Assembly: GCF_022014595.1 (NCBI RefSeq)
Contig: NZ_CP091740.1
Span: 1,116,001-1,180,000, forward strand
DNA from: Solitalea lacus
Lineage (GTDB): Bacteria > Bacteroidota > Bacteroidia > Sphingobacteriales > Sphingobacteriaceae
Length of the DNA stretch: 64,000 nt
Direction: 5' to 3'
Shown here: in pieces, positions 34,210-52,098 of the stretch
How positions within the stretch are numbered: the first letter of the stretch is position 1
Layout of the letters: every line of letters begins with the position of its first letter
The notes under the pieces: generated by a model
Told to the model about the DNA's origin: nothing
What the model saw: the letters and a program-made list of their open reading frames with translations, nothing else
Databases searched by the model: none
Program-made: the position numbers and the translations under genes

Positions 34210-34283
34210 GGCGGGGTAGCTCAGATGGTTAGAGCGCAGGATTCATAACCCTGAGGTCACGGGTTCAACTCCCGTCTCCGCTA
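34210..34283 (+). tRNA. tRNA-Met (CAT), elongator type
   Basis: The acceptor arms GGCGGGG and CTCCGCT pair (two G-U), with D-arm GCTCAGATGGTTAGAGC and T-arm ACGGGTTCAACTCCCGT. The anticodon loop TTCATAA gives CAT at 34244-34246. CCA is not encoded. It marks the left edge of an accessory region; a shortened copy of its 3' half recurs at 39931. Confidence 0.95.
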
Positions 34284-34291
34284 CAAATGAT

Positions 34292-34324
34292 AAAAGGCTT
34301 TTAGAGGTAATCTAAAAGCCTTTT
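34292..34324 (+). terminator. tRNA-Met terminator
   Basis: The stem AAAAGGCTTTTAGA pairs perfectly with TCTAAAAGCCTTTT around a 5-base loop, with a T run. Related copies at about 37591-37620 and 39967-39996 mark the repeated element junctions. Confidence 0.9.
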
Positions 34325-34401
34325 TTAGTTTTTGTACAACTTAAGCTACTTCTAGCATTTTATGGTCTTTTTTTGCCTTGTTCGCCAACAGATGCGCCAA
34401 A

Positions 34402-34647
34402 ATGTTTACAGGTCCTAAGGTCAAATTTAGTAACGAAAGAGCTTACATTGAGTACTATTACGATGGCAAGTGTTACAGGGAGTACAACGCGAACAAGCTG
34501 CAATTATCTATTTTTCCTAACAAAGGCAAGAGCGGAAAGGAGCAGTTAAAACTCCTGATCAAATTAAAGTTCGAGTTTCAGAAAGCTTTAGAAAAAGGAT
34601 GGAATCCTTACACCCAATTGGAACCTTCTAAAAAGCAAAACCCCTAA
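34402..34647 (+). pseudogene. tyrosine integrase, N-terminal arm-binding fragment (copy 1)
   Basis: Only 81 codons remain, starting at ATG 34402 (MFTGPKVKFSNERAYIEYYYDGK). The stretch resembles the N-terminal arm-binding region of Bacteroidota phage-type integrases (KLKFEFQKALEKGWNPYTQLEP, near the end). The core-binding and catalytic R-H-R-Y domains are missing; downstream to 34865 nothing is recognisable. Its position right behind tRNA-Met is what is expected for an integrase of a tRNA-targeting element. A second, more decayed copy lies at 37630-37870. The family call is by pattern and location. Confidence 0.65.
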
Positions 34648-34865
34648 GTACAACGGCAACAGCGGATCAACCATCGGGTAAAAGAATTATGGCTGGTGAA
34701 AGAAGAGGTGATTAGAGAGCGTATTTGTTTACCCTGACTGGGCACCCGAAAAACTGTATCAACAATAATAAAACAATACTTAAATCGTTTCAAGAGGAAC
34801 AGCTATCAAGAGAAGTTTTTAAGAACTAAATCATTTACCTTTTTATCATCTGAATTTCAATAACT

Positions 34866-36182
34866 ATGATGAATTTTATTTCTAAGTATATCAAAATAAC
34901 ATTGTTTTTTGCTTTGGCTTACATGTTGCCATTTTCATTACTAGCTCAAGATGAACTGGTTACTGCTATTAACAATAAACTAATTCCTGTTAATACGCTA
35001 TCTCCCAGTGATGATTTTTCTGACCTTGAGCAGCTAAAGAATATATTTAAGGACAAAAAAATTGTTGGTCTTGGGGAAGCTACACACGCAACCAAAGAGT
35101 TCTTTGATTATAAACATCGATTATTACGATTTATGGTAACTGAACTCGGGTTTAAAACATTTATTATTGAGGCTGATTTTGCAGGCTCAAAGGTAATGAA
35201 CGATTATGTCTTATATGGAAAAGGCGACCCTTATACCGGTCTAAAAAAAATGGGAATAGGGGTTTGGATGATGACCGAATTTTTGGAGATGGTGGAATGG
35301 ATCAAGGAGTATAATTCAACAAAAGCATTGGAGGATAAGGTGAAATTTTATGGTTGTGATATGCAGGTGGGTTTGTTTGCAGCGCAAGCCATTAAAGAAG
35401 GTTTAGGATCAAAAATAGAATTGCTTTCTGATGATAGCAAAAAAGGGTTGGACATGATCATTAACTGGCGCTACCATGTATCCACGGGTGCTGAAAATAG
35501 TTTATTGAAAAATACCATTTCAGAGTTAAACAGATATTTTCCTGCTAAAGCTGATACAAATCAATTGGAATTATTCAAACAATACATTCGTGTATTAGAG
35601 CAAAACATAGAGTTTATTCATGCTAAAGATTGGTTTCAACAGGATAAAGTAAGAGATAAATACATGGCAGAGAATTGTAAATGGATTTATCAGTTTGAAT
35701 CAAAAGGAAAAGCAATTATCTGGGCGCACAATGGCCATGTTTCAAAGGATATTACGATGAACAACAATCTACCAATGGGGAATTACTTAGCAAAAGTATT
35801 TCCACAAGAGTACTATGTAATGGGCTTTGGATTTAATTCGGGTAAATTAGGAGGGTTCAAGCAAAAAGACGGAACATGGATTCGTGTTACTTATTCAATT
35901 CCAGATGTTCAAATTAAAAACTCTAGTGATTATGTATTTAAACAATGTGATAAGCCTAATTTCATCTTAGATTTTAATACGGCATCTACTAATCCCATTA
36001 TTGCTGATTTTCTTAATAAAAAAGTAAACTCTCGTTTAATCGGAGGGGTTTATCATGCAAATAAACAAGCTAAAGGTGGAGATGGAGCATATCAAGCACT
36101 TATAAAAATGTATGATGCAATTATCTTTATAAGAGAAACTAATGCATCCACTGCATTGAAAATGAGCCATTTTCTAAATTAA
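34866..36182 (+). CDS. erythromycin esterase family protein, exported
   Basis: This 438-residue protein has a signal peptide (to about LLAQ) and the erythromycin esterase (Ere) domain: GLGEATHATKEFFDYKHRLLRFM holds the conserved Glu and His, followed by FIIEADFAGSKVMNDYVLYGKG and AIIWAHNGHVSKD. Ere enzymes hydrolyse macrolide lactones, but many homologues have other, unknown substrates, and a periplasmic location is unusual for the resistance enzymes. Resistance should not be assumed. It lies between the first integrase fragment and the IS remnant, so it is probably cargo of the tRNA-Met element. Confidence 0.82.
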   Translation: MMNFISKYIKITLFFALAYMLPFSLLAQDELVTAINNKLIPVNTLSPSDDFSDLEQLKNIFKDKKIVGLGEATHATKEFFDYKHRLLRFMVTELGFKTFIIEADFAGSKVMNDYVLYGKGDPYTGLKKMGIGVWMMTEFLEMVEWIKEYNSTKALEDKVKFYGCDMQVGLFAAQAIKEGLGSKIELLSDDSKKGLDMIINWRYHVSTGAENSLLKNTISELNRYFPAKADTNQLELFKQYIRVLEQNIEFIHAKDWFQQDKVRDKYMAENCKWIYQFESKGKAIIWAHNGHVSKDITMNNNLPMGNYLAKVFPQEYYVMGFGFNSGKLGGFKQKDGTWIRVTYSIPDVQIKNSSDYVFKQCDKPNFILDFNTASTNPIIADFLNKKVNSRLIGGVYHANKQAKGGDGAYQALIKMYDAIIFIRETNASTALKMSHFLN

Positions 36183-36369
36183 TATAATACTTTTACCAGG
36201 GTAGGTAAAATAAACTGTGTCAAGAGGCTTTGTTGTAATTATTATTTGGGTGTGGGAATGTGGTAAACTCGTATGAGTTTTCCATATTTCCACACCTTGT
36301 TCGTTAATTCAAATCTAACTGAAAACAAATGGAAAGTTCGGATCTGGATCAAAAACTGTGGAGTAAGTT

Positions 36370-36960
36370 TAGTTAGCCTGAAACGGAAAAAAATTAACAT
36401 TTCCTACGCCCCCATATTGCACCCTGAAGGCATTAATTTTTGCATTGAAAGATTCCGCAGAGGCATTGGTGCTTTTGTTGTCAAATAATTGAGTATGTTC
36501 TTGTGGTGATTGATGATCCATCGTTCTGGATAGGGTATTGAAGGTCTAGAATCCAGGTTGTTCTACCTGCTCATTCCACCAATCTTGCAAAGGCATATAA
36601 CTTATCCTTTGTATCGCTAAATATCCACGATAGTTTCTGAACTAAATCATAGGTTTTTCTTAGGGCAGGTTATTTTTCAAATAGGAGTTTGGCTCTCACT
36701 ACCTGCTCAGCAGGTAGAAACCTCTGGCATGTAGTTGTTTTAACTGAATGTTTTAGCATCTTCTAATGCTTGATTTTCCACCTCGATTGCCTCCCACCGG
36801 TATTTAATTCTGATCTCCTGTAAAGCTTCGCTGGTCAGTTTTTGAACATAGAGGGGATTTTTAGCAACAAGGGGATGATATTATCGGACTTTGTCCCTTC
36901 CATAATAGCCACCAAAGTTCCCGCCTTACCTTTTGCTTGTTTTATCTTAATTCTATTCGT
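36370..36960 (-). mobile_element. ISAon1-type transposase remnant
   Basis: The minus strand, read with frame changes and stops, gives pieces that line up with DDE transposases of the ISAon1 group: KAGTLVAIMEGTKS, then KNPLYVQKLTSEALQEIRIK and YRWEAIEVENQALEDAK, then AEQVVRAKLLFEK and TYDLVQKLSWIFSDTKDKLY, then NASAESFNAKINAFR near 36400-36450. Order and spacing fit the C-terminal two thirds of such a protein; the N-terminus is lost. It occupies the 900-base gap between the esterase gene and the hipB-like gene. Confidence 0.75.
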
Positions 36961-37023
36961 GTTAAATATACTATTCGGCTGTAGATCAATTTGTATCCAC
37001 AGCCAAAAGTTGTTGTTTTAATA

Positions 37024-37065
37024 TAGATTTGGCTCCGGATCTATTTTGATCCACAGCCAAATCTA
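37024..37065. repeat. imperfect inverted repeat beside the IS remnant
   Basis: Arms of 18 bases (37024-37041 with 37048-37065) pair with two mismatches around TATTTT. A related imperfect repeat (GGCTGTAGATC ... TATCCACAGCC) lies just upstream at about 36978-37003. They may be the remains of IS ends or a folded terminator for the hipB-like gene. Confidence 0.5.
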
Positions 37066-37118
37066 GGCTTTGAAAGTATCTGCTTAAAACATACCAGCCA
37101 GATTAAAAAAGCAGTTGG

Positions 37119-37415
37119 TTACGACTTCCCAATCAATTTTAAATCCTGCAACTTCCGTCCAAACTCATCATCTGCAGCCAGCTTTAGAAAATCATCCTGC
37201 AAACCCAGCACTCTGAACACATTAAAGTAAGCCCTTAGGGATACACTCGGATTGCCTTTTTCTATATGATACAAAGTTGTACGGTCTATGCCTGCCCGTT
37301 CGGCCACTTGTATGGTTGTTAGGGTACGTCTTTTTCTGGCAAGCTTGATATTTTCTCCCATTTGCTCTAATACTTTTTGAAATTTGGGAAGAAGTGGTTG
37401 CTTTTTGGAACGCAT
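37119..37415 (-). CDS. XRE-family HTH regulator, HipB-like, without a HipA partner
   Basis: This 98-residue protein (start ATG at 37415) contains one Cro/C1-type helix-turn-helix (LTTIQVAERAGIDRTTLYHIEKGNPSVSL). Its C-terminal tail LAADDEFGRKLQDLKL is typical of HipB-like antitoxins whose gene precedes hipA. No hipA follows: downstream on this strand come inverted repeats and the IS remnant. A 7-1-7 palindrome in its upstream region suggests autoregulation. It is either an orphan antitoxin or a regulator with a new role. Confidence 0.75.
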   Translation of the reverse strand: MRSKKQPLLPKFQKVLEQMGENIKLARKRRTLTTIQVAERAGIDRTTLYHIEKGNPSVSLRAYFNVFRVLGLQDDFLKLAADDEFGRKLQDLKLIGKS

Positions 37416-37451
37416 ATAAATGTTGTTTATTTTCAACAAATATGACTTTAT

Positions 37452-37466
37452 TGTTTATAATAAACA
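37452..37466. promoter_or_regulatory. palindromic operator candidate near hipB-like gene
   Basis: TGTTTAT-A-ATAAACA is a perfect 7-1-7 inverted repeat, 37 bases upstream of the hipB-like start. It lies between a plus-strand TTG (37451-37453) and TATCTTTG (37472-37479), which together look like a promoter pointing rightwards. A second half-palindrome (TTGTT...AACAA) is closer to the gene. Confidence 0.55.
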
Positions 37467-37587
37467 GCATTTATCTTTGAGTAATAGCATGCATTCATTC
37501 ATTAAAGAGAAAAGCTTCTGATAGAATCTATTAGTTTAAAATCCCCTTCAAGTGTTCAAACAATTTCTCATCAGGGCTACGAAAGAA

Positions 37588-37870
37588 AAAAGACTTTTAG
37601 AGTTTATCTAAGAGCCTTCGCCAAATTTTTACAGAACCAGAAATTAAAATTACATCTAACATCGCTTACATTGAGTAGTATTTTCTATGGCGCTCCGAAG
37701 AAAATACATGGAAACCGAATTTCTTTATCCAGCTTTCCTAAAAAAGAAAGAATGAAAAGGAAAAGTTTTAGCTTTTAAACAAATTGAAATATGGATTTCA
37801 GAAAGCCTTAGAAAAAGGCTGGCCTCCAATAACTGAAGCTAAACAAAAAATCATAAGAAGTTTAAAGTAA
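37588..37870 (+). pseudogene. tRNA-flank terminator plus integrase N-terminal remnant (copy 2)
   Basis: This is a decayed second copy of 34292-34647. It begins with a terminator-like stretch (GACTTTTAGAGTTTATCTAAGAGCC), continues into TTTTTACAGAACC and TCGCTTACATTGAGTA, and ends in CAGAAAGCCTTAGAAAAAGGCTGG, matching copy 1 codon by codon. A stop (TAG for TAC) and frameshifts break it. The encoded tail FQKALEKGWPP parallels FQKALEKGWNP of copy 1. The rest of 37416-38021 holds only this and the upstream promoter of the next gene. Confidence 0.75.
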
Positions 37871-38021
37871 ACGATACATGCATCTTTAAATAATAAACTG
37901 TCGGGTAATTACAGCTCTCCATGTGTTTGTAAGGAGAGGTTATGAGCATATACGAAAAGTCTAATATAAAACCAAAATTGCTTATTTTCATTAATTTAGT
38001 ATTACTCAAATAATATCAATT

Positions 38022-39092
38022 ATGGCACTTTTTATGGATTTGCATAAAGCTTCCGAAGGTGAGGAAGGAATGCCCAGCATTGAAGAGATAAAATGTTGTC
38101 ATATGGCCGACTTGAAAATACAAGCTAAATACGGAGTTCGGTTTATACAATATTGGATTAACACTGAAGCAGGATTGTTCTTTTGTTTGATGGAAGGTCC
38201 GGATAAGGAATCGTGTGCTGCCGTACATCACGAAGCACATGGTAATATGGCGTGTAATATAATTGAACTGCAAGGCGGCGATTACAACGCGTACATGGGT
38301 AATGAAAGCACTAAAAATGAATTTGATTTAGTTGAAAACCCCGATGGAACATTGGATACTGGGATTAGAGTGATTTTAATGGTTGATATTATCACGCCGG
38401 TTAATGGCCAAAATCTCTATGATCAAATTAAAAATGCATTTAAAAAATTTAAAGGCAGGGAAGCAAACCACGGAGGCGATCGGATAATGTGTGTTTTTAA
38501 CTCCAGTTCACATGCAATTGATTGCGCAAAAACAATCCTTACTGATTTCGAAATTGCAAATAAAGATGGGGTAGAAGTGCGCATTGGTATAAGTGCGGGC
38601 GGACCGGTAAACGACGGGATTGATTTTTTTGGCAGCAGCATTCGACTCGCAAATAAGTTATGCGATATAGCGCAAAGCAATCAAATTATTGTATCCACAG
38701 AGGTCAAGGAGTTAACTAAAGGCACTCTCATCACAACTGACAATGAAAACGGCGTATTAAGAATCATTACTCCGGTTGATGAAAAGTTTGTAAACGCATT
38801 GATTGAAGCGGTTGAGTCAATGGAAGGCAATTCAACATTTAGTGTGGAGAGTCTAAGCAAAAGCGTCGGCATGAGCAAAGCTCAACTCTATCGAAAAACG
38901 ACCTCTTTAACAGGCCATTCCCCCAACTATTTTATCCAGGAACAACGGCTGAAAAAAGCCTTGAAATTGATTAAGAAGAAATCAGGCAACATAGCCGAAA
39001 TCGCCTTTGAAGTGGGATTTAGCAGTCCGTCCTATTTTACAAAGAGTTTCCAAAACCGTTTTGGGATATTACCCACTCAAGCTCAGAGGTAA
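38022..39092 (+). CDS. DUF4242 - class III cyclase homology domain - AraC HTH fusion regulator
   Basis: This 356-residue cytoplasmic protein fuses three parts. Residues 1-85 are a DUF4242 domain (SCO4226-like, nickel-binding family) with HHEAHG at 69-74. Residues 115-230 resemble a class III nucleotidyl cyclase: Asp122 (MVDI) and Asp153 (GGDRIMCVF) sit where the two metal-binding Asp belong, followed by VRIGISAGGPV and DFFGSSIRLANKL. The usual catalytic Asn and Arg of the VNxAAR motif are replaced (Arg208, Lys212), so cyclase activity is doubtful. Residues 262-356 are an AraC DNA-binding domain with both HTHs. It probably senses a metal or small ligand and regulates the adjacent DUF4242 lipoprotein gene, 186 bases downstream. 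Confidence 0.85.
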   Translation: MALFMDLHKASEGEEGMPSIEEIKCCHMADLKIQAKYGVRFIQYWINTEAGLFFCLMEGPDKESCAAVHHEAHGNMACNIIELQGGDYNAYMGNESTKNEFDLVENPDGTLDTGIRVILMVDIITPVNGQNLYDQIKNAFKKFKGREANHGGDRIMCVFNSSSHAIDCAKTILTDFEIANKDGVEVRIGISAGGPVNDGIDFFGSSIRLANKLCDIAQSNQIIVSTEVKELTKGTLITTDNENGVLRIITPVDEKFVNALIEAVESMEGNSTFSVESLSKSVGMSKAQLYRKTTSLTGHSPNYFIQEQRLKKALKLIKKKSGNIAEIAFEVGFSSPSYFTKSFQNRFGILPTQAQR

Positions 39093-39278
39093 CCTCTGTC
39101 TCTACCCTAATGGGATGAGGTGATCCAAAATTGCTAGCATTTGAATGAAATGTGAAAGCCTTCCAGCAAAGTTCCACCTAATTTTATATCAGTTAATCAA
39201 GGTTTGAACTTAAAACAAATTAACATGGAACGAGTAATTTCAGTTATTCACATTAATTCATCTTTAAAATTTAAACCC

Positions 39279-39929
39279 ATGAAATCTTTAATTTCGCTTT
39301 TCGCAGTATTTGGATTGTTTTTTCTTGCCTGCGGCGCTAATGCTAAAAACGTAGAAACCGACATGGATCTGGCGGGTATTCAGGATTCTAACTCTAACAA
39401 AGCGCATTATTACATTGATGTACATAATCTGGAGCCAGGCAAAGTTTCCCTGGCCGATGTACAGGACGCACATAAAAAAGACCTTGCCGCCCAAGGCAAA
39501 TACAATGTAAGCTTTATTAACTTTTGGGTCGACGAGCAACAAGGCAAGGTGTATTGCCTCTCGAAAGCCAATGATGAAGAATCAATAACAAGTACCCATA
39601 AAGAAGCACATGGTCTACTGCCTTCCGCGATTTACGAAGTAACCGAAGGGCAAGCAGCCGCGATGACAGGTAAAAAACAGTTATTCATTGATGTTCATGA
39701 ACTAGGCCCAGGCAAAGTAACTGCAAAAGATGTAGCCGGCGCACACGCTAAAGATTTGGCCGTGGAAGGCAAATACGGCGTCAACTTTATTAACTATTGG
39801 GTCGACGAAAAAAACGGTGTAGTGTTCTGTTTGTCTGAAGCTGCCAATTCAACCGCAATCATAAACACTCATAAAGAAGCTCATGGTTTAGTGCCTGCTT
39901 ATATTATGAAAGTGAAACAAGGCGAATGA
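39279..39929 (+). CDS. exported protein with two DUF4242 (nickel-binding-like) domains
   Basis: This 216-residue protein starts at the ATG 39279, which opens a signal peptide with a likely lipobox (FFLAC). Two tandem DUF4242 domains follow (about residues 40-125 and 128-213), each beginning YIDVHNLEPGKVS/FIDVHELGPGKVT and ending THKEAHGL. The family prototype SCO4226 binds nickel. The domain is the same as the N-terminus of the upstream regulator, so the two genes likely form a sensor and target pair. No transporter gene is adjacent. Confidence 0.82.
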   Translation: MKSLISLFAVFGLFFLACGANAKNVETDMDLAGIQDSNSNKAHYYIDVHNLEPGKVSLADVQDAHKKDLAAQGKYNVSFINFWVDEQQGKVYCLSKANDEESITSTHKEAHGLLPSAIYEVTEGQAAAMTGKKQLFIDVHELGPGKVTAKDVAGAHAKDLAVEGKYGVNFINYWVDEKNGVVFCLSEAANSTAIINTHKEAHGLVPAYIMKVKQGE

Positions 39930-39930
39930 T

Positions 39931-40001
39931 AGAGCGCAGGTTCAACTACCGTCTCCGATAAGAAAAAAAGGCTTTTAGAGAAATCTGAAAGCCTTTTTTA
40001 G
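39931..40001 (+). repeat. deleted copy of tRNA-Met 3' half with its terminator (att-like)
   Basis: AGAGCGCAGG then TTCAACTACCGTCTCCG repeats the tRNA-Met D-arm and T-arm sequence, with 22-23 bases around the anticodon missing and a few changes. It is followed by a terminator (AAAGGCTTTTAGA with TCTGAAAGCCTTT) that matches the one after tRNA-Met, and by CACAGATGTACCAAATG, similar to the start of integrase copy 1. It cannot be a functional tRNA. It is best read as an old integration junction. Confidence 0.8.
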
Positions 40002-40082
40002 TTTGGGGCGGTTTTGAGTTACTTCAGCTTTTATTGTCTTTTTTCCAGTGTGCCACAGATGTACCAAATGATTATAGAAGGT

Positions 40083-51910: not shown

Positions 51911-52098
51911 TGTAATTTGCAGGTTTTAAGATATTATGCAGGATTTGCCGATGCTTCTGTTAAATACAATCCGGCAATGGTTTGTGGAGTATAAGTAATT
52001 CGATAATGTATTTTATTGATATACTGTAAGTTAGTGAAAAAATATCATTTCGTCCACCTTTTAGATATTGCTTGATTTTCAATTCTTTTATGTATGGA

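Follow-up and report, generated by a model that had tools for sequence, protein, structure and literature searches.

The DNA analyzed here is a 64,000-nt stretch from Solitalea lacus (hereafter the window, in genome G000), in which a tRNA-Met gene is flanked on its left by a START_2 gene. To the right of the START_2 gene, the region at 34.2‒40.1 kb contains, from left to right, tRNA-Met, a tyrosine-integrase stub with cargo, a second stub with cargo, and a final tRNA-Met fragment with its terminator. These look like the remains of at least two small mobile elements that were inserted successively at one spot. We compared the region with three genomes of the same genus (G001, G002, and G003) and with a set of 399 genomes of the family, and tRNAs were called by ARAGORN and protein domains by Pfam.

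tRNA-Met and its three junctions

A whole-genome BLAST search of G000 with window 34200‒34700, the junction of tRNA-Met and the integrase start, as the query detected two further copies in the window, copy 2 (37725‒37822, 74%, E 3.8e-9) and copy 3 (39939‒40077, 75%, E 1.9e-16). A repeat search revealed an 86-nt pair at 72% identity (34522‒34607 and 37742‒37827) and a 43-nt terminator block present in three copies. Past the terminator, the alignment extends into the integrase 5′ region in copies 1 and 2 and into the leader before the integrase in copy 3. Copy 1 comprises the tRNA, terminator, leader, and integrase start, copy 2 the terminator and integrase region, and copy 3 the tRNA fragment, terminator, and leader. 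The three copies proposed in a preliminary description, which was made from the nucleotide letters alone, are thus borne out by BLAST, the repeat search, and the alignment. That description had also named a failure to align beyond the terminator as a result that would speak against it, and the alignment instead continues into the leader and integrase. Its observation that the tRNA-Met of copy 3 lacks the anticodon region agrees with the alignment, in which the anticodon arm is missing. The three junctions are therefore confirmed as real, beyond chance, and homologous past the terminator. Their decay rises with distance from the tRNA, from an open stub through a stub with three stops to a leader only.

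Seven further BLAST places lie outside the three junctions. Four of them match the terminator only (query positions 93‒127), two represent one hairpin at 2.26 Mb counted on both strands, and one is a tRNA-Ala. An extra junction copy at 3.66 Mb was rejected because the site is a tRNA-Ala with a similar terminator. The terminator hairpin alone was likewise rejected as the repeated unit, since it occurs solitarily elsewhere in the genome and the homology extends beyond it.

A profile of the putative attachment (att) region, consisting of the tRNA 3′ half and the terminator, was run over 34‒144 kb of G000 (window coordinates) with a reversed-sequence control and real-sequence controls. Besides the tRNA itself, copy 3 gave a strong match (39931‒40006, E 2.3e-18), and a displaced tRNA fragment lies at the far end of the array (39931‒39959), as in tRNA-targeted islands. 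Copy 2 was matched weakly (37575‒37619, E 5.1e-6), a terminator-only match was found at 52098‒52128 (E 7.2e-5), and the same hairpins also matched more weakly on the opposite strand. The best match of the reversed sequence was E 0.27. The real-sequence controls did match: E was 1.4e-8 for a tRNA-Ala whose terminator is similar, and 5.5e-6 and 7e-6 for sites with the terminator alone. Therefore, the profile match of copy 2 by itself proves only a terminator, and the case for copy 2 rests on integrase homology. Neither the alignment nor the att profile revealed a recognizable tRNA body in copy 2, the left side of which is a separate 43-bp repeat; the preliminary description is to be corrected in this detail. 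Since copy 3 is the last att copy found, the nirK group, onto which a third unit had been said to open, lies outside the stack.

Integrase stubs and full-length relatives

The 89-aa open reading frame (ORF) at 34378‒34647 gave no Pfam match above the cut-off. When its 81-aa stub was used as a query, 62 of the 399 family genomes were matched, with the window's own genome counted, and 57 of the 70 listed matches fall in open frames of 351‒429 aa. The stub is 59% identical to the full-length integrase of G140 over 79 aa. In tblastn with three full-length integrases, alignment to the window stubs reached no further than residues 86 and 107, out of about 360. The stub of copy 2 is interrupted by two TAG and one TAA in-frame stops. 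At the 30 loci returned by the stub search, tRNA-Met was present in the fetched flank of seven and lay upstream on the same strand in six, including the window itself and G001; tRNA-Lys was found near three loci and tRNA-Phe near one.

In G118, G120, and G146, the stub matches are PF00589 integrases that immediately follow tRNA-Met on its strand, and the START_2 gene lies to the left of the tRNA, as it does in the window. Full-length integrases of the same family are thus present behind the same tRNA-Met, and a complete integrase beside a regenerated tRNA occurs in these three genomes and not in the window, where the stub is about 81 aa long. Over 158 columns, the stub DNA of copies 1 and 2 is 62% identical, that of copy 1 and G001 69%, and that of copy 2 and G001 82%. 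In 10000 bootstraps, the identity of copy 2 to G001 exceeded that of copy 1 to copy 2 in 100%, and the identity of copy 1 to G001 did so in 98%. The two window stubs hence belong to different lineages.

At the START_2/tRNA-Met site, G118 apparently carries an intact 11-kb element. Behind a 370-aa PF00589 integrase come more ORFs, one of which encodes a GmrSD-type protein (PF03235); at the far end, 11.1 kb from the tRNA, the tRNA 3′ half is repeated perfectly over 46 bp. A direct-repeat pair of about 9 bp lies directly before the integrase and again 78‒90 bp before the far att, where one repeat has one mismatch. In G001, this layout recurs on a small scale: a stub is followed after 1.6 kb by a perfect 48-bp (48/48) copy of the tRNA 3′ half, and one 20-bp pair occurs in identical form ahead of the stub and 86 bp upstream of the att repeat. 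By analogy, we take these short repeat pairs to be putative arm-type sites. Seven chosen whole genomes were searched for the arm-pair pattern with one mismatch allowed and the backward pattern as a control. The pattern was found at 11 places in five of the seven genomes, and the backward control at none. Nine of the 11 places lie at junctions, just before full-length integrases of the stub family (G146 and G140), or at the distal end of the G140 element, where the pattern forms a doublet. Four places in G001 and G002 have the 20-bp pair in identical form. A perfect TGCGCCAA pair in G140:C1 stands about 160 bp from a tRNA-Phe with no queried integrase in the 14 kb fetched and is possibly another remnant; a place in G146:C2, with no tRNA or queried integrase in 9 kb, may be due to chance.

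The element in G140 (G140:C4:83001-102500), which is about 15 kb long and encodes a full-length integrase, interrupts tRNA-Met after about position 39‒42. The 5′ half of the tRNA (39 nt) is left next to START_2 and the integrase, and the far end holds a complete tRNA-Met. This far-end tRNA-Met is preceded by a copy of the upstream region, forming a 188-bp repeat that is 99% identical and consists of about 146 bp of upstream sequence and the tRNA 5′ part. The G140 element seems to restore the tRNA 5′ half instead of the 3′ half. Since the att repeats in G118 and G001 start at tRNA positions 30 and 28, respectively, and reach the 3′ end, the exchange could lie anywhere within them. The split in G140 would point to the anticodon region as the exchange point, whereas a unit at a second site in G002, described below, would point to the terminal GCTAC.

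Stacks, cargo, and a second site in G002

For comparison of the locus, 14 loci were chosen on the START_2 match alone and searched with three tyrosine integrases and two serine recombinases. tRNA-Met was called at 13 of them, and few genes to its right are shared. A recombinase or its remnant was found at the tRNA in four loci: G001 has a tyrosine stub, G004 has a 62-aa serine remnant, and in G002 (G002:C1:254001-274000) and G036, tRNA-Met is overlapped by the 3′ end of a large serine recombinase gene, the two recombinases sharing 30% identity. Since serine-recombinase elements use the same tRNA, the decayed material need not all be of one type. The G002 stack starts with the serine recombinase and conjugation genes, with a TraG-type gene (PF19044) some 8 kb from the recombinase, and has clear tRNA 3′ copies at 206.9, 202.6, and 193.6 kb, the tRNA itself being at 270.8 kb. 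At a stack junction of G002 (G002:C1:193603-193678), tRNA-Met occurs a second time, nearly whole and preceded by a perfect arm pair. In G003, these queries and the att profile detected att copies only. Extra att copies are thus present in all four genus genomes, including that of the window, and the contents of the stacks differ. The window region is not carried behind the tRNA-Met of G001‒G003, where other att-bounded units are found.

A VOC gene and, farther to the right, a 28-kb block are common to G001 and G003; the best G000 matches of both lie near 2.15‒2.12 Mb on the other strand. Therefore, the right side of the window is of no use as an empty-site control. No junction copy was found at 2.14‒2.18 Mb of G000, and window 45‒64 kb matches scattered places in the relatives. 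A large rearrangement, such as an inversion, may have one of its ends close to the tRNA-Met stack (G000 1.15 and 2.12‒2.15 Mb). Just beyond the window, a pair of genes for a membrane protein and an AraC-like regulator was recognized by eye (G000:C1:1180574-1182127, window 64574 on); it shares 85% identity with the DNA that directly follows the last tRNA-Met copy of G002.

The two window units, about 3.3 and 2.4 kb long, hold different cargo, as had been proposed: an esterase and a helix-turn-helix (HTH) protein in unit 1 and a SCO4226-like pair in unit 2 (Table 1). Pfam was run on five ORFs of the interval between the junctions; none of these five is of a recombinase, relaxase, or secretion type (smaller ORFs were not scanned), and both integrase stubs are truncated. 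The ORFs between the junctions include no complete integrase and the clear repeats are tRNA-derived, unlike an integron cassette array, although attC structures were not specifically searched for. The DNA comparison of the cargo scored 40 of the 56 first-look candidates in G001, 40 of 75 in G002, and all 40 in G003, and the unit 1 cargo genes had no DNA match among the matches listed for these genomes. The unit 2 pair is 85‒88% identical between the window and G002, and the left flank of tRNA-Met is 77% identical. In G002, the pair lies far from tRNA-Met, at 4.48 Mb, behind tRNA-Pro, a terminator, and a sequence that by eye resembles the start of another integrase.

Table 1 Features of the tRNA-Met region (window coordinates)
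Feature	Position	Strand	Evidence
tRNA-Met (CAT), target; the att region that recurs is its 3′ half	34210..34284	+	ARAGORN; perfect repeats of the same half (46-bp in G118, 48-bp in G001)
Terminator hairpin directly 3′ of the tRNA, recurring at copies 2 and 3	34289..34331	+	Repeat search, alignment
Arm-type repeat pair (TGCGCCAA-type, one mismatch) immediately ahead of the integrase stub; putative arm role	34381..34400	+	Pattern search
Junction copy 1: tyrosine integrase 5′ stub, 81 aa, without the catalytic part	34402..34647	+	ORF 34378-34647; similarity to full-length relatives; tblastn
Unit 1 cargo: erythromycin-esterase-family (PF05139) protein, 438 aa	34866..36182	+	Pfam
Remnant of a sequence that recurs at 8 places in G002; by eye, probably an insertion sequence	36339..36942	-	DNA match
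Unit 1 cargo: HTH (Cro/C1-type) protein, 106 aa	37119..37439	-	Pfam
43-bp dispersed repeat ending GGGCTAC, left edge of junction copy 2	37536..37579	+	Repeat and pattern search
Junction copy 2: terminator and decayed integrase 5′ region, three in-frame stops	37585..37870	+	Repeats, alignment
Unit 2 cargo: SCO4226-like (PF14026) and AraC-type regulator, 356 aa	38022..39092	+	Pfam; 88% nt to G002:C1:4480636-4481755
Unit 2 cargo: double SCO4226-like (PF14026) protein, lipoprotein-like by eye	39204..39929	+	Pfam; 85% nt to G002:C1:4479647-4480465
Junction copy 3: fragment of tRNA-Met (no anticodon arm) with terminator and decayed leader; the final att copy detected	39931..40079	+	BLAST, alignment, att profile

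The 43-bp repeat at the left edge of copy 2 was searched for in the 399 genomes with up to 2 mismatches. It has four copies in G000 (window 37536‒37579 and genome positions 2259829, 2263298, and 2065158) and three in G002 (217600, 2590472, and 2607340), and none was found in the other genomes. The repeat ends in or near GGGCTAC and is joined to a terminator at some sites and not at others. It might represent the right end of the serine-recombinase element. At 2.59 Mb of G002, the repeat ending GGGCTAC is followed by the terminator, a leader with a perfect arm pair, and an ORF that is acetyltransferase-like by eye, and the right end consists of the tRNA-Met 3′ half and then a second kind of terminator. 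This second-site unit is about 1 kb long and has no integrase. Its flanks (left 78%, right 87%) both match one stretch at 217.6 kb of G002, and since they are adjacent there, 217.6 kb represents a paralogous unoccupied site. The ORF and att of the unit are 92.5% identical to the tRNA-Met stack copy at 207 kb in the same genome.

Origin of the region and known systems

The window at 34.2‒40.1 kb is very probably a fossil accretion array, a decayed stack of integrative elements at tRNA-Met. In the course that we envisage, integrative elements of one tyrosine-integrase family would have recombined with the tRNA-Met 3′ half. Each would have carried in a copy of this half, so that the tRNA stays whole, along with a terminator of its own and an adjacent integrase gene, and each insertion would have pushed the earlier tRNA 3′ end and its trailing sequence one step to the right. 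The elements would then have lost most of the integrase, about the first 80‒110 codons of which are left, and any transfer genes, and the outcome would be cargo between att remnants in units resembling cis-mobilizable elements (CIMEs). The repeated junctions, the lost integrase ends, the two stub lineages, the counterpart in G118, and the extra att copies in the genus are observed directly. We infer that each window unit was once an independent element and that the newest insertion is nearest the tRNA. The preliminary claim of successive insertions at one tRNA 3′ end, followed by decay, is supported as the best reading.

Several observations weigh against such an array. The left flank of copy 2 is the 43-bp repeat that also occurs without any junction, and the att of this copy consists only of GCTAC and the terminator and scores no better than the terminator-only controls; the right end of unit 1 is thus unsupported as a tRNA-Met att, and the tRNA origin of copy 2 is presumed. 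The window units retain no arm site at their right ends, the arm pattern is absent from G003 and G120 in the whole-genome search with one mismatch allowed, and two of its 11 places lie elsewhere. The stub query found no full-length integrase of the stub family in the four genus genomes, and therefore a source of mobility is missing there. Relatives not carrying the region were found, as the preliminary description had anticipated, but a clean empty site was not found in the genus, where each of the four genomes has at least one extra att copy. Since the unit 2 cargo pair sits behind tRNA-Pro instead in G002, cargo can travel by other means too. Finally, the passages of PMC7563491 on S. salivarius report that two integrative mobilizable elements (IMEs) of the same superfamily never occur in tandem, and both window stubs are of one family.

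The same junctions could result from a local segmental duplication, in which one insertion took place and its junction (terminator and integrase start) was later copied within the region. While the repeats are short and lie within 6 kb, and the terminator hairpin could seed recombination, copy 2 shares 82% identity with the G001 junction and only 62% with copy 1, and therefore the junction was not simply copied locally. Moreover, the cargo differs between the units, and each of the three genus relatives has a stack of different content. On the stub comparison, such a duplication was rejected, and we consider it very unlikely. An ordinary chromosomal stretch, with a tRNA pseudogene, common terminators, and small ORFs that are not integrase remnants, might seem to suffice, given that the same terminator hairpin is common in the genome and the 89-aa stub is unrecognized by Pfam. 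However, the stub matches full-length integrases in other genera, several of them at the same tRNA and, in G118, with far-end att repeats, which makes this explanation extremely improbable.

A further explanation, which is compatible with the accretion array, is that non-autonomous units with a terminator, arm sites, and att were moved in trans without an integrase of their own. The second-site unit of G002, with its paralogous unoccupied site and its 92.5% identical twin in the stack, argues for it, as does the 20-bp arm pair kept identical across G001 and G002. On the other hand, the window arm site is mismatched, the right-end arms are gone, att copy 3 is broken, the four genus genomes yielded no full-length integrase of the stub family, and the second-site reading is one case that could predate the loss of the integrase. 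We regard trans mobilization as unlikely. It is also quite unlikely that members of the genus maintain tiny integrase-less units (att, terminator, arm sites, one or two genes, and att) as a tRNA-anchored array, from which an integrase outside the sampled strains would slowly take up such units in trans, like cassettes, and re-insert them at tRNA-Met or a second site.

One tRNA-Met locus with a conserved START_2 gene on its left is an insertion hotspot in the family for tyrosine and serine recombinases, and its stages range from a full-length 11-kb island to bare junctions. Owing to this range of stages, the att region, the putative arm sites, and the order of decay are readable from sequence. 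The hotspot also helps to explain why little is shared to the right of the tRNA among the relatives examined. If integrase-less units do still move, they would show how small gene units can outlast their element.

Tandem accretion of integrative conjugative elements (ICEs) and IMEs and their decay to CIMEs have been described; the relevant passages of these studies give 1.2‒13 kb for cargo CIMEs and place the most decayed remnants farthest from the target gene (PMC5704250, PMC7563491). The window units resemble the CIMEs of these passages in that they are remnants, with clear att at tRNA-Met and copy 3, that lack intact integration or transfer genes and are arranged in tandem at the 3′ end of the target, and in their size range and the position of the most decayed remnant farthest from the target. 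They differ in that the target is tRNA-Met in a Bacteroidota family, in that each unit keeps an integrase 5′ stub and terminator, with both stubs of one integrase family, and in that no full-length partner element was found at the site in G000. The units are called CIME-like only: in the window, copy 2 has no more than GCTAC and the terminator as att, and an origin from an ICE or IME is putative. At both ends of the first unit of G001, att is clear. The tRNA islands of the kind treated in the Islander passages (PMC4383910) likewise have a tyrosine integrase by the regenerated tRNA and a displaced fragment at the opposite end, as is fully the case in G118, whereas the window integrases are truncated and the displaced fragments are stacked. 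Salmonella genomic island 1 (SGI1), as far as it is covered in the passages of PMC2297512 and PMC5704250, shares tandem integration and the use of a secondary site; the units here are different elements, and the second-site case, in G002, has no integrase. Among the titles listed for tandem accretion and for Bacteroidetes/Sphingobacteriaceae islands, none describes this tRNA-Met locus. Tandem accretion with CIME-type decay is thus already known, and the new aspects are the site, the host group, and the integrase-less second-site unit of G002, the last being the part that could turn out to be new in kind.

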